Shown: positions 6,895-54,084 of the stretch, one piece after another
Layout of the letters: the number at the start of each line of letters is the position of its first letter
How positions within the stretch are numbered: the first letter of the stretch is position 1
Origin: an uncultured bacterium
GTDB taxonomy: Bacteria > Planctomycetota > Phycisphaerae > Phycisphaerales > UBA1924
Reading direction: 5' to 3'
Length of the DNA: 64,000 nt
Assembly (NCBI GenBank): GCA_903834785.1
Contig: CAILKP010000061.1
Location: 124,001 to 188,000, forward strand
Program-made: the position numbers and the translations under genes
The notes under the pieces: generated by a model
Database searches by the model: none
What the model was told of the DNA's origin: nothing
The model's input: only the letters and a program-made list of their open reading frames with translations

Positions 6895-8202
6895 ATGCCG
6901 CTTCCCTGGTTCATCTCCTCCGGTCTGCTTCTGGTCATCGCGTTGATGCTCGGTGGCATGGCACTACATCGATCCCGCCTGCCGCGGCTGCGGCGATGCC
7001 GAAACTGCCGATACTCGCTCGATGGGCTGACGACCCTGACCTGCCCCGAGTGCGGCAACACCGCCCGCAGCGAACTGGCCTTGCTGCACCGCCCGGCGTG
7101 GAGGCGATATCTTCTGCTTTCCGCGGCATGCACCGCACTTTCCATCGGTCTGGCCGCCGCACCGTACTGGCGGTCGGCACTGCCTGCAGTGCCGACCGGG
7201 CTGCTGGCCACCATTGTCCATCAGGGCCCCAGTTTCAACGCTGAGCTGTCGCAGGCCTGTGCAGTCGAGCTCCGTGAACGGCTCTCCGTCCGGGGCATCA
7301 GCGTCGATGCGTACCTGGACCTGATCGCCTCTCTGGACAGAGTCGACCCAAGTGCATGCGGAAGCTACATCGAGAGTCTGGTCGTATCGGGCGATGGACT
7401 CGTCCGAACAGCATCGGCCTACGACTCTCTCTCGGTGTATCACAAGCTGGGGCCGGACCTGCTGCCGCCGGCGTGGGTAACCCTTTCAGATCGCACCCGT
7501 CGGTTTCTTCCAGGGCTGCAGGCCCGGCTTGGCGCCTCACCTGACGACGACTTTTCCATCTTCTCGCGCATCGCGGTGCTTGCGGCAACGGTGCCAGAGG
7601 CGGCGAAGATCCTCATCAATCAGCTCGATGGTCCGCACCATCAGTTTGCAAAGACGGCGATCCTGACCCACCTCGGCCCGAGCTCGGCGGCGGCCGTCGG
7701 TCGCTTCCTTCGCTCACCATCGAGCGCGACACGCTCAGCCGCGTGTGAGGTACTGCTGGCATTTGGTGCAGAGGCGGCGCCGGCCGCCGACGACCTCCTT
7801 GCGGTAATCAGCACGCCGGGCGATTGCTTCTCGCTGGCCGTTAAACAAACGCTGCTGGCCATCCATCCCTCGCCGGAGGTACTTGTGCCGCACCTTCCCG
7901 CGATTCTAGCCAGCCGGGACAACGGCTGCGCCAGCAGCTCGGGGTCGCCGCCTCAGCACGCATCGGACCGTTCCACCAGCACCGCGCTTGTCGTCCTGCT
8001 CGGAAACCGCGCCGCCCAGTCGCTGATTCCACTGCTGACCCACCCGGATAAAGCTGTACGCCTTGCGGCCATCGACGCGCTCCGCGACTGTGCGGCATCG
8101 GACCCGGCGACGATCCCGGCGCTCGAGACGGTTGTCCGCGACCAACCTCCGAACAGTCCCGAGTCGTTCAACGCCCGCAACGCCCTCAAGAAGCTCCGGT
8201 GA
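6895..8202 (+). CDS. Membrane-anchored zinc-ribbon/HEAT-repeat protein
   Basis: The 435-residue protein starts with a membrane segment (residues 5-24). It continues with a planctomycete-type zinc ribbon whose cysteines are C35, C38, C50 and C53 (CRNCRYSLDG...CPECG), then a second hydrophobic stretch around 64-90. The C-terminal half contains alpha-helical HEAT-like repeats with the typical SATRSAACEVLLAFG and DKAVRLAAIDALRDC units. HEAT repeats bind proteins; no partner is evident. The 288-nt region between the previous gene and this start shows no gene that I can support. Confidence 0.75.
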   Translation: MPLPWFISSGLLLVIALMLGGMALHRSRLPRLRRCRNCRYSLDGLTTLTCPECGNTARSELALLHRPAWRRYLLLSAACTALSIGLAAAPYWRSALPAVPTGLLATIVHQGPSFNAELSQACAVELRERLSVRGISVDAYLDLIASLDRVDPSACGSYIESLVVSGDGLVRTASAYDSLSVYHKLGPDLLPPAWVTLSDRTRRFLPGLQARLGASPDDDFSIFSRIAVLAATVPEAAKILINQLDGPHHQFAKTAILTHLGPSSAAAVGRFLRSPSSATRSAACEVLLAFGAEAAPAADDLLAVISTPGDCFSLAVKQTLLAIHPSPEVLVPHLPAILASRDNGCASSSGSPPQHASDRSTSTALVVLLGNRAAQSLIPLLTHPDKAVRLAAIDALRDCAASDPATIPALETVVRDQPPNSPESFNARNALKKLR

Positions 8203-8311: not shown

Positions 8312-11014
8312 ATGTTCCTCGCCAGCGCCATTTGCGTTTCTGCCCTTGTGACCGCAGCCAACCTCCCCGCCGAGCCCTCGCGCCGCTGGACACCGACTGG
8401 CGCACCAGCCTTCGATGGTGTTCTGCTTCAGGTCGACGGCATCGATGCCCAGTACTCCGGCCTTGCTCCAGTGATTCAACGTGCCGACGGCCGCGTGCGC
8501 TGCTATGACCTTCGCGATCTTTCTGCCGAAGATCAGACATACGTCCGCGGGGCCATGGCTCGCGTACCGACCAACCACGGCGGCCCCCACTTCCGTGACC
8601 TTGGACCGTACAAGGCACGAGACCTGGGCTATCCGGACCCGGGCGATTCCAAGCCGACAACCTACGAGACCGACCACTTCAGGTTCTTCTGGGCCAGCCG
8701 CGCGACAGGAGATGCAGCCTGGTGGAACAAGCCCGAGGAGCGGCAGAAGCGGTTTGACTACTTCGAGCGTGTCTGGCGGTTCTTTAACGAGGCCGGCGCC
8801 CACATGCCCCACGAATCTGTAGACGCCGCGAACGGCCGAACGACCAACACGCCCGACCGACGCAAGGTGGACGTGTTCATCACCGGCACCGGTCTGCGGC
8901 ACCATGCCGAGGGCTTTGCCTTCGGGGCCGAGAGCATCGTGGTACACCCGGCAGCCCTCGGAGACGGTTCATCGGTCGTGCCGCACGAGTTCGGACATGT
9001 GCTGCAGTACTACTCCGGCGGCAACCGCGACAGCCGCCTGGTCGGCTGGTTCTGGGAGAATCACGGCAACTGGTGCTCACAGCAGTTCACCCCGACGTAC
9101 CCGCCGTGCATGGACGCGTATCTGGACCGGCTGAACTACGAACTCTCCAGCGAGCGGATGAACTACTGCTCGTGGATGATGCTGCAGCTCATGACCGAGA
9201 CGCCCGAACTCGGCGGCAGCTTTGTCTGGAAGCTCTGGCGGGAGAGCCTTCGCTCCGACACAGGTGCGGCACTGGAATCGCCCATCCAGACAATGATCCG
9301 ACTCGGTGCCGCCCAAGGGACGTTCGCCCGCCCCGGCTCGCCCGATGGGCATGAGGGCTTCGCCGATCTGGCTGGCACGCTGGCCGCACGCTTGGTGAGC
9401 ATGGACTTCCGCAACCAGCCGATTTACCTCAAGACCGTTCGCGAAGTCGAACGGCGGCAAGAGCGACGCACCCGCTGGCGCGTGCCGCTGAACCCGGTTG
9501 CCGGCACTGACCGTCTGTTCGCCCCGCCGCTAGCCGTCGTGCCGATGGACTACGGCATCAACCTGGCAGACATCCGGCCCGCCGAGGGTGCCAAGACCGT
9601 CACCGTGACGCTGCTCGGGCAGTCCGCATTCCCCGCCGAGCAGGGCTGGCGCTGCTCGATCGTCGGCGTGGATGGCGACTTCAACGCCCGCTACAGCACC
9701 GTGGTTCCTGCCGGCACGCCCACCACGCTGGAGGTACTCCCCGGTGAGCGATACACCCTGGCCATTGCCTCAACGCCGCGGAAGTACATGCCCGTCTCCC
9801 CCGATGAGTCCTACGGCGCGCGTCGACGCGCGCCCTACCGCGTGAAGCTGGACAACGCCGTGCCGGAGGACCGGCTGGAAGCAACGCTCCGGCCAGTTCC
9901 CGCTGTTTCAGCAGATGTGGCACCACCGCCGGGCATGACCCGCCACCCCCGTGGCGGCGGCCTCGTGGCAACAACGGCCAAGGTCAGCCCCGAAGCGTTC
10001 ATCGGCCCGCAGGCCATGGTGCTGGAGTCCGCAACCGTTACGGCCGGAGCCAGGGTTGAAGGGCGAGCCATCGTCCGCGGCCAGGCCACCGTGACGGACA
10101 AGGCCATCGTCCGCGGCCATGCCCGTGTGGGTGACCAGGCAACCATCGGCGGCGAATCGCTCGTCACCGGCTATGCAACCGTGCGGGAGCGCGTCACCGT
10201 CGCCGGCAACGCTCACGTCACGGAATGGTCCGCCGTGCTCGGCCACGGCACCGTCACCGGCAACACGCTCGTCCAGGGCTGCGGCGAGGTCATGCTGCAC
10301 TCTCCGTCCGGCAAAGAGGGCAAGGGCCTGATTGATGGTTACACCATCATCGGCAACGACCAGGAGATGCACATCGCGGGCATCACAGTCAAGCCGGGGT
10401 TGTACTGGGGCTTTGTTGATGCCGAGCGGCACACTCCAAAGCCGTCCGGCGACGGGCTCATCGCCCGATGGAACTTCGGCGTTCCTGCCGGCGTTGATGC
10501 TTCAGCCGCAGTGGTGTGCGACTCCCACACCGGACATGATGCGATCATCGAGGGCTCACCCAAACGGACCGCCGAGGGCGTTGTGCTCACGCAGGCAGAG
10601 CAGTTTGTCCGGCTGGATCCATCTGTGATTGATCGGCGGCGCTGGCAGGCCGATGTTGAGTTTTCGGGTTCCGGAACTGTGCTCGCCTTTGGTGATGCTG
10701 ACGGCTCGGTGGCACTGGCGTACGACGCTGCGGAGCATGCAGCCCGCGTGATCGATCGTGGTACGGTCTTGCTGACCCTACCAGTGGCGACGCCGCCCGG
10801 GCAACCAGTGCGGCTGACCATCACGGGTCTGGACGGGCAGATCCGGCTGGGTGCCGGCACCGGGCGCACCGCAGGTCCCGTGCAACTGCCGATGCGCGAT
10901 GCCCCGGTGACGTGGGTCACCCTTGGCCGAGACCTAGGGCCAGGGCGGTCGGGTGCAGCCGCCGGGTTCTCCGGTACAATCCACCAAGGGTCGATCCGCC
11001 GGCACATCGACTGA
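8312..11014 (+). CDS. Secreted DUF6055-like metalloprotease with beta-helix and lectin-like C-terminus
   Basis: The 900-residue protein starts at the ATG that opens a signal peptide (MFLASAICVSALVTAANLPA). Residues ~110-340 resemble DUF6055-type zinc proteins and contain an HEFGH motif at H225-H229, a peptidase-type zinc site. Residues ~540-680 are a series of hexapeptide-like repeats rich in V/A-x-x-x-A-x-V (ARVEGRAIVRGQATVTDKA), expected to form a left-handed beta-helix. The last ~170 residues look like a concanavalin/LamG-type fold. The combination suggests an extracellular enzyme that acts on polymers or binds surfaces. Substrate unknown. Confidence 0.7.
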   Translation: MFLASAICVSALVTAANLPAEPSRRWTPTGAPAFDGVLLQVDGIDAQYSGLAPVIQRADGRVRCYDLRDLSAEDQTYVRGAMARVPTNHGGPHFRDLGPYKARDLGYPDPGDSKPTTYETDHFRFFWASRATGDAAWWNKPEERQKRFDYFERVWRFFNEAGAHMPHESVDAANGRTTNTPDRRKVDVFITGTGLRHHAEGFAFGAESIVVHPAALGDGSSVVPHEFGHVLQYYSGGNRDSRLVGWFWENHGNWCSQQFTPTYPPCMDAYLDRLNYELSSERMNYCSWMMLQLMTETPELGGSFVWKLWRESLRSDTGAALESPIQTMIRLGAAQGTFARPGSPDGHEGFADLAGTLAARLVSMDFRNQPIYLKTVREVERRQERRTRWRVPLNPVAGTDRLFAPPLAVVPMDYGINLADIRPAEGAKTVTVTLLGQSAFPAEQGWRCSIVGVDGDFNARYSTVVPAGTPTTLEVLPGERYTLAIASTPRKYMPVSPDESYGARRRAPYRVKLDNAVPEDRLEATLRPVPAVSADVAPPPGMTRHPRGGGLVATTAKVSPEAFIGPQAMVLESATVTAGARVEGRAIVRGQATVTDKAIVRGHARVGDQATIGGESLVTGYATVRERVTVAGNAHVTEWSAVLGHGTVTGNTLVQGCGEVMLHSPSGKEGKGLIDGYTIIGNDQEMHIAGITVKPGLYWGFVDAERHTPKPSGDGLIARWNFGVPAGVDASAAVVCDSHTGHDAIIEGSPKRTAEGVVLTQAEQFVRLDPSVIDRRRWQADVEFSGSGTVLAFGDADGSVALAYDAAEHAARVIDRGTVLLTLPVATPPGQPVRLTITGLDGQIRLGAGTGRTAGPVQLPMRDAPVTWVTLGRDLGPGRSGAAAGFSGTIHQGSIRRHID

Positions 11015-11639: not shown

Positions 11640-12005
11640 TTATGGGGTTGCCGGCCGCCCGGCCTCACCCAGCGGCACCTCGCGCTCGCGAAGCAGATGC
11701 TCCTTGGCGCGGTTCACAAACAGAGTGCCCGCGATGACCAGCAGCGCCAGGCCGATACCCAGCATGACCAGTTTGGCGCGACGGCGGACCGCGCTGGTCG
11801 GCTTCGCGAGCCGCGGGCGGGGCACGCGCATCTCAAGGGTGTCTGGCGGGGTCGCCTGATCGGCGGCCAGTTCCATGATCGTGCCCGGCACAATCAAGCG
11901 GGACCGCACAAACGCGTCGACAGCCGCCGCGGAGTCACCCTCAACCACCGCCCGCCAGGGCTGACCTTTAAACGCGTCCTTTCCGACAACCACAAACCGG
12001 GGCAC
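11640..12005 (-). CDS. Small membrane protein of unknown function
   Basis: The 121-residue protein has a GTG start. The N-terminal ~55 residues form a small alpha/beta segment (VVVGKDAFKGQPWRAVVEGD) and a basic stretch precedes one membrane helix at about 81-99 (LVMLGIGLALLVIAGTLFV). It follows scoB on the same strand with a 48-nt gap, so it is probably the last gene of that unit. It is convergent with the plus-strand gene ending at 11632. No family recognised. Confidence 0.6.
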   Translation of the reverse strand: MPRFVVVGKDAFKGQPWRAVVEGDSAAAVDAFVRSRLIVPGTIMELAADQATPPDTLEMRVPRPRLAKPTSAVRRRAKLVMLGIGLALLVIAGTLFVNRAKEHLLREREVPLGEAGRPATP

Positions 12006-12053
12006 AGCGGGCTCCCTTCATCGCGCTGCCAGTGTCCGGATCACCACAGTGAC

Positions 12054-12716
<663 letters not shown>

Positions 12717-12801: not shown

Positions 12802-14190
12802 TCAGCCCCCACGCGGCTTGACCGGGGTGCCCTTGCGGAACGGGCTCTGCTCCGCGGGCTTGACCTCCGGCTTGGGTTCCGGCTTCGGATCCAGGGTCGG
12901 CTTGGGCTCGGGCTTCGGTTCGGGCTTCGGTTCGGGCTTCGGTTCGGGCTTCGGTTCAGCCTTGGGCTCGGGCTTGGGTTCGGGCTTGGACTCGGGCTTC
13001 GCTTCCACCTTCGTCTCTGCCTTCACGGCCGGCTTCTCCGTTTCCGGCGCGGGCTTGGCGGCAACCGCCGTGGCGGCGGCTGGCTGCTGGGCTGGCTGTT
13101 GGGCCGCAGGCGGCACCACCGCCGTCGGCTTGGCACCGGCCTGCTCGTTGGGAATCAGGTCCACAGCCGGCGTCGCAGCCTTCGCGGGCGTGGCGGCGGT
13201 CGTCGTCGTCGAGGACTGGGCAGCGACCGGCGGCCCCCCGGCGGTGCTCGCGGTCGGCGCGGGCCCGGCTGCTCCGGCACTGGCAGCCGCAACCGGCGGC
13301 GCACCAGCACCCGCGGCACCCCCACCACTGCTGGGAATACGACGTGCAGCCAGATCCGCCTTGCCATCAGCACCAAGGCCAATGGGCGTACCGCTGATCT
13401 CGTTGGGCGGCGGCGGAACGAAGGGCAGGTACTCGTACCAGTACTTGTCGCGCTGGAAGACCGGATACATAAACGCCTTGCGCTCGACGAAAATGTCCTG
13501 CGTCTCGCCCAGCCACTTGAGCCACGCCCGCTGATCTTCACCAAAATCCTTGCCCGTCAGCGTCTCCAGCGAGCGTCGAACGTTGGTTGTCACCAGCAGC
13601 GAGTCATCATCCAACGCACCGACGAGCGTCTGCACAACACGACGCTCGGCGTACTGCCCCAGCCCAATGGCCACTTCGGACCGCACATCGGCCTCGGGCT
13701 CGGCCTTGGGCAATAGCAGCGGCATCAGCGGTTCGACAGTCTTTGGGTTGTGGATGCGCTGCAGGGCGCGGGCCGCTTCCAGCCGCACGTTCTTGTCCTT
13801 TTCCTTCAGCAGCGGCAGGATCAGATCCGCACTGGCCGGGTCGCCGTGCATGCCCAGAGCTCGGGCCGCGATACCGCGAACGCCTGGGTCTGGGTCCGGC
13901 TCGGCCGCCGGCGGGGCACCGAGCTTGCTGGCGTACATGCGGACGTACACGTCCTCGCCACCGAACGGTGCATTGGCCAGCAGGTTTGTGCCGCGGTAAC
14001 GCTTGTCGGCGTCGTACGGATCCTGCGACCACGCGGCGGCCTCGGCCGGCTTTGGCGGGGCAAACAGGCCGAAGATGGACTCGGTCTGGGCGGCACGCTT
14101 GGTGTCCAGTTCGCTGGCACATCCGCCGGCGAGCATGACCAGGGCCAAGGTGGCCGCCACACCGCACACGGCAGCGGCAGGGCCACGCAT
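12802..14190 (-). CDS. HEAT-repeat lipoprotein with Lys-Pro-Glu tail
   Basis: From the ATG at 14190 the protein has 462 residues and a compact lipoprotein signal ending VMLAGGC (Cys 24). An in-frame ATG at 14235 would give a 15-residue longer signal. Residues ~100-220 carry HEAT/PBS-type repeats ([38 protein letters not shown]). A conserved-looking aromatic stretch ([16 protein letters not shown]) follows, then ~200 residues of Ala/Pro and Lys-Pro-Glu low complexity probably spanning the periplasm. It is divergent from the lipoprotein gene at 14334. Confidence 0.7.
12911..12958. repeat. Four tandem 12-bp units coding for Lys-Pro-Glu-Pro
   Basis: Four head-to-tail copies of GGCTTCGGTTCG (the last ends in A) lie inside the tail of the HEAT lipoprotein gene. 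They encode the repeated Pro-Glu-Pro-Lys unit on the minus strand. Flanking, diverged copies extend the array on both sides. Such an array can expand or contract by slippage. Confidence 0.9.
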
Positions 14191-14333
14191 ACCAACACGA
14201 TCACTCTGGGCAACTACGCGGGCCGAAGTCGTCATCCGCGATGGTAAGGCGGCCACAGGCCCCGGCGGCAAAGGCGAAGACTTCCGCTGTGGATTCACCC
14301 GCCCGTTTTGGGGCGGCCTGCCAACCCTTACGC

Positions 14334-15119
14334 ATGGCTCAGATATACCAGTTCCGCCTCCTGCCGTGCTTGCTCACCTCGGCCGCCCTCCTCCCCGGTT
14401 GTGCGGCCATCGAGGAGCCCCCAAGCCCCGTCGTCGTGACAGCAGCGGGCGATGGCCCGGGCACTCCACTGACGCTGAGCATGTTCTCCGCCGAGGGAGC
14501 ACGGGCTCAGGTATTCGTCGATGCTGCCGATCAGGCCCGGACGCTGGAAGTCAGCCGCGGCTCGCCCTCAACAACCCCCGGTGCCACGTGGACTGTCCGA
14601 AAGTCCCTCGGAGGCACACCGGATTCGCTGCTGACGTTTATCCGCGAGGAAGATGGCGGCATCGGGCTGGTCTCAACAGCCGAGTTCTCCGACGGTGCCT
14701 TCACCGTCTTTTCTCCACCCATGCCCATCAGCCGGCCGAGCATCGCCCCGGGCAAGCAGGGCAGCTATCAGCGGGCCGTCGAGATGAAAGTCACTCACCT
14801 CGATGCCGCGGGTAAGGACACCGGGAAGTCCAAGGCCTCGGGCAGCGGAACCGTGACGATGACCTACCAGGGAACCACGCCGATTCCGCGGGCGGCAGCC
14901 AACGGCCTTGGCACAGCTTCTGGTTTACTCCTGGTCTCCACGCTCACCGCCGAGCTTTCACCAGCAACCGTCCTGAGCACCACCGAGACGTGGTACGACC
15001 CAGCCGGCACCGGCATCATCGCCGAACGTCGAACCGAGCGGGTGAAAGTGATGGGCGTGCAGATCCGCGGCAAGCAGACCCTGTGGCTGCGTCAAGAAGA
15101 CAAGCCAACCTCGAAGTGA
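14334..15119 (+). CDS. Lipoprotein of unknown function
   Basis: The 261-residue protein has a lipoprotein signal (MAQIYQFRLLPCLLTSAALLPGC, Cys at 23). The mature part is predicted beta-rich with Ser/Thr-Pro-Gly loops and no recognisable domain. The ATG at 14334 is chosen because it opens the signal sequence; the frame reaches 31 codons further upstream. It faces away from the HEAT lipoprotein, with about 140 nt between them that must hold both promoters. Confidence 0.6.
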   Translation: MAQIYQFRLLPCLLTSAALLPGCAAIEEPPSPVVVTAAGDGPGTPLTLSMFSAEGARAQVFVDAADQARTLEVSRGSPSTTPGATWTVRKSLGGTPDSLLTFIREEDGGIGLVSTAEFSDGAFTVFSPPMPISRPSIAPGKQGSYQRAVEMKVTHLDAAGKDTGKSKASGSGTVTMTYQGTTPIPRAAANGLGTASGLLLVSTLTAELSPATVLSTTETWYDPAGTGIIAERRTERVKVMGVQIRGKQTLWLRQEDKPTSK

Positions 15120-49566: not shown

Positions 49567-49857
49567 TCACCGCGGCTCACGCAGCTTCGCCGCGATCCGC
49601 GCCTTGGCATCCTCCGGCATCCCCGTCTTCACACCCGCACCCACCTCCGCCCCACGTCCACCAATCGCCCTCGCCGCTGCACGAATCGCCAGCAGCGACC
49701 GGTAGTACGCCCGGCACCCGATGCAGCTGTACCTGTGAATCCGCAGCAGCAGCCGCGCCGGCCACGACAGCCGCCCGTCAATCTCGTACGACATGCTCTC
49801 TGCATGGTCGCAGCAGCGGCCCTTGAGCACCTGCATCACCGTCGGCGGCTTGTTCAT
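49567..49857 (-). CDS. Zinc-type anti-sigma factor
   Basis: The 96-residue protein has the ZAS pattern: an upstream CCDHAESMSYEIDG helix and the HRYSCIGC motif (His-x3-Cys-x2-Cys) that binds zinc. It has no membrane helix, so it should act in the cytoplasm, possibly as a redox-sensitive inhibitor. Its start overlaps the stop of the sigma factor gene by 4 nt, the typical sigma/anti-sigma arrangement. Confidence 0.8.
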   Translation of the reverse strand: MNKPPTVMQVLKGRCCDHAESMSYEIDGRLSWPARLLLRIHRYSCIGCRAYYRSLLAIRAAARAIGGRGAEVGAGVKTGMPEDAKARIAAKLREPR

Positions 49858-50462
49858 GGCTCACCCCCGTCCGCCCCGCGCTCAACACACAATCGCAGCT
49901 GCTGGCGTGCCCGATGCAGCCGCACCCCCAAGTTGTTCGCCTCGATGCCCAGTTCCTGACACACCGCAGGCACCGGCATCCCCAGCACCTCGCGCAGATG
50001 AAACGCCGCCCACAGCAGCTCCGGTAGCTTCTCCATACACGCATCCAGCAGCTTCGCCAGCTCAGTCCGGTCTGCCGGGCTGGAGTCCAGTTCCCTGGCC
50101 GGACGCACGAAGTGCCCCGTGTCATCGAACTCCTGCTCCATCGCCACCGTCTGCATCGCCGCCCGCGTGTACCGCTTCCGCTGCCGGTCCGCAACCCGCC
50201 TCAGCAGGATCGACACCAGCCACGTCCGCTCGCTCGATCGCCCCTCAAAGCTCGCCGCCGCGGCAAGGGCCGACAGGAACGTCTCCTGCACCACTTCCTC
50301 CGCCTCCTCAGCATTCCGCAGCCGACCGATCGCCATTTTCCACAGAATGTCGCCGTGGTTCTCGAGCCATCGTTCCGGATCCAGCCGAACCGGATCGCCC
50401 GCAGAATGCGTAACCCCGCTGCCTAAGTCATCGGCCTCAAACTCGCTGGGTTCTGTCCGCAT
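49854..50462 (-). CDS. ECF-family RNA polymerase sigma factor
   Basis: From the ATG at 50462 (an in-frame GTG lies 21 nt upstream) the 202-residue protein has sigma region 2 (ILWKMAIGRLRNAEEAEEVV, ERTWLVSILLRRVADRQRKR) and region 4 (LWAAFHLREVLGMPVPAVCQ, then ELGIEANNLGVRLHRARQQL). Regions 1 and 3 are missing, as in the extracytoplasmic-function group. The next gene is its presumed anti-sigma factor. It is separated from rtcA by a terminator. Confidence 0.93.
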   Translation of the reverse strand: MRTEPSEFEADDLGSGVTHSAGDPVRLDPERWLENHGDILWKMAIGRLRNAEEAEEVVQETFLSALAAAASFEGRSSERTWLVSILLRRVADRQRKRYTRAAMQTVAMEQEFDDTGHFVRPARELDSSPADRTELAKLLDACMEKLPELLWAAFHLREVLGMPVPAVCQELGIEANNLGVRLHRARQQLRLCVERGADGGEP

Positions 50463-50530
50463 AACGCTGTTGAGGCAAGTCACCGTCCGTCTGCAAGGTG
50501 CCGTCGCACCGCCCGCACAACCAGCGCATC

Positions 50531-50595: not shown

Positions 50596-51684
50596 CTACT
50601 TCGTGCTTCCCGCCCGCTCCGGCCCCACATGCACCCGCCAGCGAAGCTCCGACCCGGCTTCTCGCCGGGCCGACAGTTCCACCGGCAGAAACGCCCGAAT
50701 CGTCTGCATGTTCGTCTCGGTATGGCAGGTCGGCTTCACTGTCGCGAACGCCGATGCTCCGCCGCCTCGGGCAGCCGCAAGGGCCATCGGCAGGATGATC
50801 TGATCCGCCAGGTGCGGCCCCACGGCCACCCCGGCCTCGATCACCTCCTTTGCCTCCTGGCAGGCCCGCGCTGCCGCTTCGCCGGGGGCAAACCCCCGCT
50901 CGCCGAGTTCCGAAACGACCTCGCAGCCTGACCCGTGCCGCAGCAACAGCACCAGCGCACTGACCTGCCCCAGAGCATCCAGCGACGGCACCTCTGGCTC
51001 GGTCACTCGCAGCCCGTCGATCCCGCGCCCGGTCAGCAGCCGCGAAACCGTCTCCACCTCCCGGGCCGCAATCCCCGGGTCCACCCGGCTCAGCAGACAC
51101 CGCGGCGTCACCGTCCGGTACCGACACTCGTCAGTCAGATCAACCCCGCGCAGCCTCGCCGCCGGCGTGATCACGGCCCGAATCAGGCCGCCACCACGCG
51201 GATAGAACCCGTGACGCACCACCTCCAGCCGCAGCCCGCCGCCCATCTTCTCAATCACCGGCGCAAACGCGTGCTCGATGAACTCCGGCATCGGCGCATG
51301 CTTGGCGTGCGTGCCCCCGGTGATCTCCACCGTGCTCTCGCCCGCTGCCAGCAGCAGCGCAGGCACCACCGTCTGCAGCACCAGCATCGTGCTGCCCGCC
51401 GTATCAATCGTGAACCGATACACGCCCGATGCCGACGGCATCGACGGCCGGAACGTCAGCTCTTGCGAGCGCAGCTCCGCACCATGGATCTCCGCCGCCC
51501 CGATCCGCGCCGCGGCATGGACCGAGGCCAGATGCTGTGCAGCCAGCCCCGGCGTCGAACGCCCCGCGCGGATCCGCACCAGCCGAAACGGCCGCTGCGT
51601 TACCAGCGAAAGTGCCACCGCCGTGCGGAGGATCTGCCCGCCGCCTTCACCAACCGAACCATCAAGTTGAACCACATCGTCCAT
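50596..51684 (-). CDS. rtcA: RNA 3'-terminal phosphate cyclase
   Basis: The 362-residue enzyme converts RNA 3'-phosphate ends to 2',3'-cyclic phosphates through an adenylated histidine. GSVGEGGGQILRT at the start, the GGTHAKHAP and FYPRGGG segments, HLADQIILPMALA and the C-terminal HTETNMQTI with the active histidine (near residue 325) define the family. It follows rtcB on the same strand with a 112-nt gap that holds a hairpin. A terminator ends the operon. Confidence 0.96.
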   Translation of the reverse strand: MDDVVQLDGSVGEGGGQILRTAVALSLVTQRPFRLVRIRAGRSTPGLAAQHLASVHAAARIGAAEIHGAELRSQELTFRPSMPSASGVYRFTIDTAGSTMLVLQTVVPALLLAAGESTVEITGGTHAKHAPMPEFIEHAFAPVIEKMGGGLRLEVVRHGFYPRGGGLIRAVITPAARLRGVDLTDECRYRTVTPRCLLSRVDPGIAAREVETVSRLLTGRGIDGLRVTEPEVPSLDALGQVSALVLLLRHGSGCEVVSELGERGFAPGEAAARACQEAKEVIEAGVAVGPHLADQIILPMALAAARGGGASAFATVKPTCHTETNMQTIRAFLPVELSARREAGSELRWRVHVGPERAGSTK

Positions 51685-51796: not shown

Positions 51797-53320
51797 TCAG
51801 TCGTCCGCTTCCGAACCATCCTTGATCACAAACCGCGCCGACAGCCGGGCCACCTCGCTGGCCAGCCCCGCCAGCTTCACCGAGTCCAGGACCTTGTTAA
51901 AGTCCTTGTACGCGGCAGGTGCCTCATCAATCGGGTACTGCCGGCAGTTGGTCAGGATGTCCAGCTCCGCCAGCTGCCGATCAACCCGGCCCTGATCCAG
52001 CGTCCGCGCCGCGTTCTTGCGGCCCATCCGCCGGCCGGCCCCGTGGTTCACCGAGTAGGCCGAGAGCTTCGCTCCCTCTTCAGCCACCATCACGCTCGAT
52101 CCGTCCGCCGGGTTGCCCGGCAGCAGGATCGGGTGACCGATCGCCTCGAACGGAGTTCCAACCAGCCCGGGGTGACCCGCCGGGAACGCCCGCGTCGCAC
52201 CCTTGCGGTGCACCCACGCCATCGGCGACCCGGCACCACCGGTGTGCTCCTGCCGCGCGATGTTGTGGCTGATGAAGTACACCAGCGAACCCGTGCAGCC
52301 GGGGATCACCTCCTGGAACGCCTCGAGGACCAGCGAGTTGATGATCATGTGGTTCACCGTGGCGAAGTTCGCACCAAGGTGCATGTCATCGATGTAGTCG
52401 TTGGCCTCCTGCGATCCGATCGGCGCGTACACCATGTGCTTGTCCTGGCCGGGCAGCGGGATTCCCCACTTGGCAAAGTGGGCTCCCAGCGTCTTGAACT
52501 GCAAGTCGGCCAGCTTCGCACCAACTCCGCGGCTGCCGCAGTGGCTCAGAAACGCTACATGGCCATCACGCAGGCCAAAGGCCTCCGCCGCCGACTTGGC
52601 ACGCTCACCCTCGGCGATGCGCACCACCTCGGCCTCACCAAAGTGATTTCCGCCGCCGTAGCTGCCTAGTTGGTTCACCTTGTCGGCGAACGTTCCGGCC
52701 CAGCCGTGCTCATCAAGGTGCTTGGTTAGCCGCTTCTCCAGCGCAGCGGTCTGCCCGTTGTGACCGGTGTGCGTCGCATCCTCACACCGCTGCGACCAGT
52801 GCGCCGGCACGCCGCAGCGCTCCAGCACATCAGCCGCCGCGCCGCGCGTGAGGATCTCAAACCCAAGATCGCTCTCAATCCGGCGGCCCTTGCGGACCGA
52901 CCGGCTCCCGCGGCCGGCACCCGTCGGCGTCCGCTCCACGATCGCATCGATCAGGGCCCGACGCGTCTTCTTGTCGCGGATCTCCGACTCGGGCACGTCC
53001 AGCTGCAGCAGCGACATCGAGCACTTGATGTCCACACCCACCGGCCCGGGATAGATGTGCGTGGGCGACACCATCACACACCCGATCGGCGCCCCGTACC
53101 CCACGTGGGCATCGGGGTTCAGCACAACTTCAGTCACACCCGGCGCCGCCCGGCACGTGCGTGCCTGGCGAATCGTCGCCTCGTCAAAGGTCCCGCGGAT
53201 GTCATCGGTTCCGATCACCGTGATCGGCTTGAGCTCGTGCCCCTCAGGCGACGTGACGGGGATAAACCCCGTCGCCTCGCCGGTGACATGAATCGCTGAG
53301 TTGTTCGGTGACGTTGCCAT
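51797..53320 (-). CDS. rtcB: RNA-splicing/repair ligase RtcB
   Basis: The 507-residue GTP- and manganese-dependent ligase joins 2',3'-cyclic-phosphate (or 3'-phosphate) ends to 5'-OH ends, for example in tRNAs cut by ribotoxins. The metal site begins GVDIKC (D97, C100), with GSYGGGNHF, LSHCGSRG and YFISHN; H426 in VNHGAGRRMGR is the guanylated histidine. A GAGGAG site lies 6 nt upstream of the ATG. It starts the rtcB-rtcA operon and lies 90 nt downstream of a tRNA gene on the same strand. Confidence 0.97.
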   Translation of the reverse strand: MATSPNNSAIHVTGEATGFIPVTSPEGHELKPITVIGTDDIRGTFDEATIRQARTCRAAPGVTEVVLNPDAHVGYGAPIGCVMVSPTHIYPGPVGVDIKCSMSLLQLDVPESEIRDKKTRRALIDAIVERTPTGAGRGSRSVRKGRRIESDLGFEILTRGAAADVLERCGVPAHWSQRCEDATHTGHNGQTAALEKRLTKHLDEHGWAGTFADKVNQLGSYGGGNHFGEAEVVRIAEGERAKSAAEAFGLRDGHVAFLSHCGSRGVGAKLADLQFKTLGAHFAKWGIPLPGQDKHMVYAPIGSQEANDYIDDMHLGANFATVNHMIINSLVLEAFQEVIPGCTGSLVYFISHNIARQEHTGGAGSPMAWVHRKGATRAFPAGHPGLVGTPFEAIGHPILLPGNPADGSSVMVAEEGAKLSAYSVNHGAGRRMGRKNAARTLDQGRVDRQLAELDILTNCRQYPIDEAPAAYKDFNKVLDSVKLAGLASEVARLSARFVIKDGSEADD

Positions 53321-53410: not shown

Positions 53411-53483
53411 TCTCCCCGGCGGGATTCGAACCCACACACTCCGCCTTCGCAGGGCGGCGACCTATCCGTTGGTCCACAGGGAA
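53411..53483 (-). tRNA. tRNA-Arg (anticodon GCG), atypical
   Basis: The 73-nt cloverleaf folds completely: acceptor TTCCCTG/CGGGGAG, D-stem GACC/GGTC with GGATA in the loop (A20 is an arginine identity base), anticodon stem CCGCC/GGCGG and T-stem GTGGG/CCCGC with TTCGAAT. The loop CTGCGAA gives anticodon GCG for CGC. Bacteria usually read this box with an ACG tRNA whose A34 becomes inosine. The first pair is U1:G72 instead of G1:C72. The discriminator is A73; CCA is not encoded. Confidence 0.85.
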
Positions 53484-53710
53484 TACGCGGCCCCACAGGG
53501 GCGCAAGTCGCAACAGACCGCCAAGTAGCCCCGCCCCAGTCGCGGCGGCCCCCGTTCGGGCCCGCCACCGCAGCTGGTGCGTCTGTCTGTCACGGCTTGC
53601 GCCCCCGTGCCCGCCTCAGTCCAGGCTGGCCCCGCCGCGAGCTCCGCTCCTTTCGGACCCCGGAACCCGCGGCAGCAGTCGCTGGCCTTCCAGCACAAGA
53701 GCAAAACCAG

Positions 53711-53784
53711 AGGCCCGGGAGGGAGTCGAACCCACACTGGCGTGGACCTGAGCCACGCGCCTCTGCCATTTGGGCTACCGGGCC
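53711..53784 (-). tRNA. Leu(CAG)-like tRNA with short variable region
   Basis: The 74-nt cloverleaf has acceptor GGCCCGG/CCGGGCC, a 3-bp D-stem with the 11-nt loop CAAATGGCAGA as in leucine tRNAs, and anticodon stem CGTGG/CCACG with loop CTCAGGT (anticodon CAG, U38 as in leucine tRNAs). The variable region is only 5 nt (CCAGT), while bacterial leucine tRNAs have a long arm. N73 is U, not the A73 that LeuRS needs. The T-stem has a U50:U64 mismatch. CCA is not encoded. Amino acid identity is therefore open. Confidence 0.7.
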
Positions 53785-54010: not shown

Positions 54011-54084
54011 CGACCCTGGCGGGACTCGAACCCGCGATTCCCAGATAATCAGTCTGGTGCTTTCAACCGCTCAGCCACAGGGCC
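54011..54084 (-). tRNA. Ser-bodied tRNA with GAU (Ile) anticodon, atypical
   Basis: The 74-nt cloverleaf has acceptor GGCCCTG/CAGGGTC (one G:U pair), D-arm GCTGAGCGGTTGAAAGC as in serine tRNAs, anticodon stem CCAGA/TCTGG with loop CTGATTA, a 5-nt variable region and T-stem GCGGG/CCCGC. The anticodon reads GAU (Ile codon AUC), but position 37 is U, where nearly all tRNAs have a purine. N73 is G, as in serine tRNAs, not A as in isoleucine tRNAs. The long serine variable arm is missing. CCA is not encoded. Confidence 0.7.

Follow-up and report, generated by a model that had tools for sequence, protein, structure and literature searches.

In Salmonella, cut tRNAs induce the rsr-yrlBA-rtcBA operon through RtcR, and the tRNA-like domain of YrlA has been suggested to be a competitor, and possibly an inhibitor, of an anticodon nuclease (PMC7790460). 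The trn operon of Anabaena shares repression with rtcB and becomes active when translation is under stress (PMC10272220). In Mycobacterium, tRNA clusters with HNH and GOLLD form extra arrays that are thought to be phage-derived, and RtcB is unmentioned in the account of these clusters (PMC9569102). Phage RtcB has been proposed to protect against tRNA cleavage (PMC3203893), and loop mutations of phage tRNAs are predicted to confer resistance to anticodon nucleases (PMC10264068). Members of the tRNA arrays of actinobacteriophages include Ile(GAU), Arg(ACG), Pro(UGG), Leu, and His. Among open-licence papers, we found no account of a tRNA array next to an rtcB gene in bacteria. Here, we describe an array of this kind in a 64,000-nucleotide stretch of a planctomycete chromosome, referred to throughout as the window, together with its first member, an unusual tRNA gene at 54011-54084.

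An array of three tRNAs upstream of rtcB-rtcA

The window contains a three-tRNA array, Ile-Leu-Arg, located upstream of an rtcB-rtcA pair on the same strand (Table 1). The array lies on the bacterial chromosome between housekeeping genes and not in a phage or prophage; the neighbors that could be identified are rtcB, rtcA, truD, a gene for a KaiC/RadA-type ATPase, and a UvrB-like gene, the last assigned by reading its sequence. The three tRNA genes start at 53411, 53711, and 54011, a spacing of exactly 300 bp, and no similarity was detected among the approximately 226-bp gaps between them. The second gene belongs to the GTAGCCCAA family of class-I Leu tRNAs, which is known from rtcB-linked arrays and from phage arrays. 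Its member in the window shows 82% identity to tRNA-Leu(UAG) from the arrays of actinobacteriophages, and it is through this neighbor, not through the Ile gene itself, that the array is related to those of phages. The class-I Leu(CAG) and Arg(GCG) genes, as well as the alternation with Y RNA/Ro60 and the phage parallel described below, had no part in the original prediction.

Table 1. Coordinates of the array and of the repair genes in the window
Feature	Position	Strand	Remarks
Chimeric tRNA gene, first tRNA of the array	54011..54084	-	ARAGORN, Rfam, masked-anticodon isotype test
Class-I tRNA-Leu(CAG), no long variable arm	53711..53784	-	GTAGCCCAA family
Rod-like hairpin, 123 nt, between tRNA-Leu and tRNA-Arg	53490..53612	-	-80.9 kcal/mol, z -6.0
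Odd tRNA-Arg(GCG)	53411..53483	-	Loop CTGCGAA; additional to the genome's tRNA-Arg(ACG)
rtcB, RNA 3'-phosphate ligase (PF01139)	51797..53320	-	Start codon 90 bp past the last tRNA
rtcA, RNA 3'-terminal phosphate cyclase (PF01137)	50596..51684	-	

The hairpin between the Leu and Arg genes has no Rfam match and no YrlA match, and it sits where relatives have YrlA; it could represent another noncoding RNA belonging to the array. Two more features lie past rtcA on the minus strand (49567-50483), a gene for a sigma factor of the ECF type, which might be a regulator of the operon, and a short open reading frame containing cysteine.

Neither Rfam nor our own YrlA model found a YrlA Y RNA in the window: the Rfam family (RF02553) gave no match in the window down to E = 1, and the best match of the local model reached only 19.1 bits and overlapped a tRNA. 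Where the YrlA model matched weakly across a tandem pair of tRNAs, the match is an artefact of the arm order of YrlA, in which a D-arm follows a T-arm. No TROVE or vWA_Ro60 match indicative of Ro60/Rsr was found in this genome, and a search for full-length RtcR returned AAA+ domain matches only. Since neither Ro60 nor full-length RtcR was found, the known inducer route is missing in this genome. The genome yielded a single PIN-domain (VapC-like) gene.

The first tRNA of the array combines an Ile anticodon with a Ser body

Both ARAGORN and Rfam identified the 54011-54084 gene on the minus strand as a full-length tRNA-Ile(GAU), with an Rfam score of 63.8 bits (E = 1.6e-11 over 64 kb). No non-standard pairs were marked in its stems, and the cloverleaf is intact. 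Direct reading bore out the unusual set of features for which the gene had been singled out, i.e., a serine-type D-arm (GGCTGAGCGGTTGAAAGC on the minus strand), G73, the anticodon GAU (54048-54050), U37 (54047), and the lack of the long variable arm expected of a tRNA-Ser; the variable region is 5 nt, whereas the tRNA-Ser of the same genome are 88-92 nt long. The anticodon loop reads CTGATTA, compared to CTGATAA in the canonical isoacceptor. Over positions 7-34, the tRNA is identical to tRNA-Ser(UGA) of relatives at 27 of 28 nucleotides.

The predicted mixture of isotypes was examined by alignment with the anticodon masked and the tRNAs of the own genome left out, a procedure that placed 45 of 46 housekeeping tRNAs nearest their own isotype. 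The tRNA at 54011-54084 was closest to tRNA-Ser(UGA), with a score of 68.5, while Ile came tenth at 41.0. U37 proved as rare as the original prediction had held; position 37 is a purine in all 46 other tRNAs of the genome (A in 36, G in 10) and in all 123 canonical tRNAs drawn from four genomes (100 A, 23 G). Bacterial SerRS recognizes the long arm of tRNA-Ser. The determinants of Ile identity are the discriminator base, the anticodon, and t6A37 (PMC9976931). Among the features of a canonical tRNA-Ile(GAU), the gene has the anticodon GAU and lacks A37, the site of t6A, as well as A73 and an Ile-type body. With U37, G73, and a Ser body devoid of the long arm, the tRNA therefore has the requirements of neither SerRS nor IleRS.

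The genome has a near-complete set of tRNAs, with 50 matches, among them canonical long-arm Leu(CAG) and Arg(ACG) and a single canonical tRNA-Ile(GAU) (G000:C33:1130-1203) with the loop CTGATAA and A73. Contig C33 has repeats in common with many other contigs of the genome, and its tRNA-Ile(GAU) matches a tRNA of a same-genus genome at 84%, so a foreign origin of this contig is unlikely. The canonical copy rules out that the 54011-54084 gene is the sole tRNA-Ile(GAU) of the cell; the gene is an extra copy. The proposed check for a canonical copy in the rRNA operon was borne out as to its existence; it could not be placed in an rRNA operon, since no rRNA match was obtained on its contig. The original prediction had named a combination that would tell against it, namely, a high score as Ile together with the lack of any other tRNA-Ile(GAU), and the genome does not present this combination.

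Recurrence of rtcB-linked tRNAs and Y RNAs in relatives

Of 400 genomes from the order, 46 had a window-type rtcB, giving 47 loci, and this gene was located at 80 named loci, mostly of the PVC group; most of the genomes are metagenome assemblies, in which absence calls can err. Neighborhoods of 1.5 kb around these 47 loci contain 40 tRNAs upstream on the same strand as rtcB, distributed over 17 loci that are not independent because many belong to one genus, and none downstream on the same strand (0/47 loci). On the opposite strand, nine tRNAs lie upstream and one lies downstream. One of the 17 linked loci has an Ala(GGC) that resembles an ordinary housekeeping gene. The anticodons that recur at rtcB are Arg(ACG), Leu(CAG/UAG/UAA), Pro(UGG), His(GUG), and Met(CAU), and tRNA-Ile(GAU) genes occur farther upstream of rtcB at three loci (L144, L176, and L199). 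The 54011-54084 gene shares the arrangement of the linked tRNAs, on the same strand and directly upstream of rtcB. Because odd tRNAs recur in this arrangement in many relatives, the connection to RtcB-RtcA that had been suspected from the window is real. When the class-I Leu motif was searched independently of rtcB, it was found in 17 of the 400 genomes and adjoined rtcB in nine. The same-genus genome G001 has rtcR-rtcB-rtcA, with RtcR adjoining rtcB and no tRNA in the flank examined, which indicates that the array is dispensable.

The anticodon loops of the linked tRNAs are altered; the 7-nt loop differs from that of the canonical isoacceptor in 37 of 39 comparable cases. Where the canonical isoacceptor has G37, this base is kept in 6 of 29 linked tRNAs compared to 11 of 11 canonical ones (Fisher p = 5e-6, with kinship ignored). 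U33 is present in 38 of the 40 linked tRNAs and a purine at position 37 in 39; the sole pyrimidine is that of the window's Ile gene, so arguments from the family apply to this gene only in part. Linked Leu tRNAs are 74-76 nt long, compared to 83-88 nt for canonical ones. In the masked-anticodon test, the body of the own isotype is mostly retained by the Arg, Pro, and His members of the linked set; most Leu and Met members do not have it.

In many relatives, the slot upstream of rtcB is filled by YrlA Y RNAs. Ro60 data were available for 43 loci; of these, 21 of the 23 with an adjacent Ro60 gene have YrlA, compared to 0 of the 20 without one. Within the order, YrlA at rtcB is confined to loci with adjacent Ro60, often as tandem arrays, and YrlA upstream of rtcB is frequent in Planctomycetota and Verrucomicrobiota. 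Six loci have YrlA together with one or two tRNAs, and the loci with tRNAs only, including that of the window, are without Ro60. The difference in tRNA number between loci with and without Ro60 is suggestive only (Mann-Whitney p = 0.07). At L176, the slot upstream of rtcB holds a Band-7 gene, with RtcR divergently upstream.

Other arrays were noted in the course of these searches. Upstream of rtcB at L199 are a tRNA-Ile(GAU) with encoded CCA (6945-7021) and a Met-like tRNA in which A33 replaces U33 (8607-8678). A second type of RtcB (~36% identity) had no tRNAs nearby at the 14 loci checked, and it is accompanied by large tRNA arrays in genomes G096 and G090. In G096, 28 tRNA genes (L102, 9856-18441) surround the second-type RtcB (13235-14509) and an HNH gene (11816-12490); class-I Leu tRNAs are present in this array, and some of its loops have C33. 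Large arrays of 8-15 tRNAs are also found at L300, L309, L319, and L316 in the relatives G168, G371, G143, and G090, with no rtcB within the 1.5-kb flank of those of G168 and G371. An array in G127 that includes class-I Leu(CAG) has a tRNA-like gene to which ARAGORN could assign no isotype (L308, 1072-1144). On viral contigs, two RtcB relatives were found, neither with tRNAs nearby.

Possible function and comparison with known systems

That such arrays recur among relatives, and also in certain phages, points to spare or decoy tRNAs being produced alongside the enzymes that repair cleaved tRNAs. The simplest common reading would be that accessory tRNAs are made together with the repair enzymes, and we consider it an even call that the 54011-54084 gene is such an accessory tRNA, part of a small phage-type array of an RNA-repair operon, with a function that we infer from its setting. 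The array would be transcribed with the repair genes, and thereby induced, while cellular tRNAs are being cut, and most of its members would be spare tRNAs whose altered anticodon loops make them poor substrates for anticodon nucleases. Linked tRNAs with an intact identity would fit this role, whereas the Ile/Ser chimera would fit better as a non-decoding tRNA mimic, either a competitor or sponge for a nuclease or a substrate or ligand of RtcB-RtcA. A similar role has been put forward for the tRNA-like Y RNA found at this position in relatives. Points that weigh against this reading are the missing inducer route, the dispensability of the array, the single PIN-domain gene, the pyrimidine 37 unique to this gene, and the non-independence of the linked loci. 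The original prediction is supported in part; misreading of isoleucine codons and a role as decoy or signal, both raised there, would be conjectures. The term decoy does not extend to the whole array, because the Arg, Pro, and His members have retained the bodies of their isotypes, a state no less suited to spare tRNAs for decoding than to decoys. More tentatively, a phage-type array inside a bacterial RNA-repair operon, swapped with Y RNA/Ro60, may supply both repair and cleavage-resistant or decoy tRNAs, with the chimera perhaps acting as non-decoding bait for a nuclease or as a damage signal.

It is doubtful that the 54011-54084 tRNA is itself a working spare, charged and used by the ribosome when the housekeeping tRNA-Ile is cut, with U37 providing resistance to cleavage. 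Its intact cloverleaf, the retention of U33 and a purine 37 in the linked group, the isotype bodies mostly retained by the Arg, Pro, and His members, and the analogy to phage tRNAs predicted to be nuclease resistant (PMC10264068) are consistent with such a role; however, the gene has U37, G73, and a Ser body with no long arm, determinants for bacterial IleRS include the discriminator base and t6A37 (PMC9976931), and Ile comes only tenth in the isotype ranking. We regard it as unlikely that the gene is a functionless relic, drifting since a mobile array was captured from a phage or another element. The phage-type relatives, the absence of the array from a same-genus genome, and a loop unique to this gene could be accounted for in this way, but drift should give broken pairs, and all stems are intact at 63.8 bits; moreover, tRNAs are linked to rtcB in many genera, and this linkage has a strand bias. 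A housekeeping tRNA-Ile(GAU) with unusual features is highly improbable given the canonical copy elsewhere, the Ser-like body, and the missing A37 and A73, despite the anticodon GAU and an automatic annotation as tRNA-Ile. A chance cloverleaf without a gene, which has nothing beyond the odd isotype mix in its favor, is ruled out by the score (E = 1.6e-11 over 64 kb) and by the context, i.e., two more tRNAs on the same strand where relatives have rtcB-linked tRNAs.

Whichever member is considered, annotators should be warned that rtcB-linked genes of this kind are not ordinary tRNA-Ile, tRNA-Leu, or tRNA-Arg. The loci form a chromosomal operon family in which Y RNA with Ro60 and loop-altered tRNAs occupy one slot, and this family has a phage counterpart. 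It bears on two open questions, the roles of Y RNAs and accessory tRNAs beside RNA-repair enzymes and the purpose of phage tRNAs, and it makes both directly testable.

Among the known systems, actinobacteriophage arrays resemble the linked tRNAs in having short class-I Leu members and some altered anticodon loops. In Mycobacterium phage Aziz, an array is followed by an RtcB-like ligase, a likeness to the array and rtcB of the window; in Gordonia phage Sixama, an array with HNH genes inside follows a gene for a Ro-like protein, with a band-7 gene nearby. Compared to these phage arrays, that of the window has three tRNAs and lies on a bacterial chromosome ahead of an rtcB-rtcA pair, and the combination of a Ser body, GAU, and U37 occurs in no phage tRNA examined here. 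HNH genes are present in the Mycobacterium clusters, as in the 28-tRNA array of G096 (PMC9569102). The Anabaena trn operon is similar in being an extra tRNA set beside the housekeeping set but differs in having 26 tRNAs, in its location on a megaplasmid, and in not adjoining rtcB, to which a shared repressor links it (PMC10272220). In the Salmonella rsr-yrlBA-rtcBA operon, tRNA-like noncoding RNAs precede rtcB-rtcA on the same strand, as in the window (PMC7790460). The window differs from that operon in that full tRNA cloverleaves replace YrlA, with Ro60 and RtcR not found, whereas relatives of the window have Ro60 and YrlA in exactly the position of rsr-yrlBA in Salmonella.
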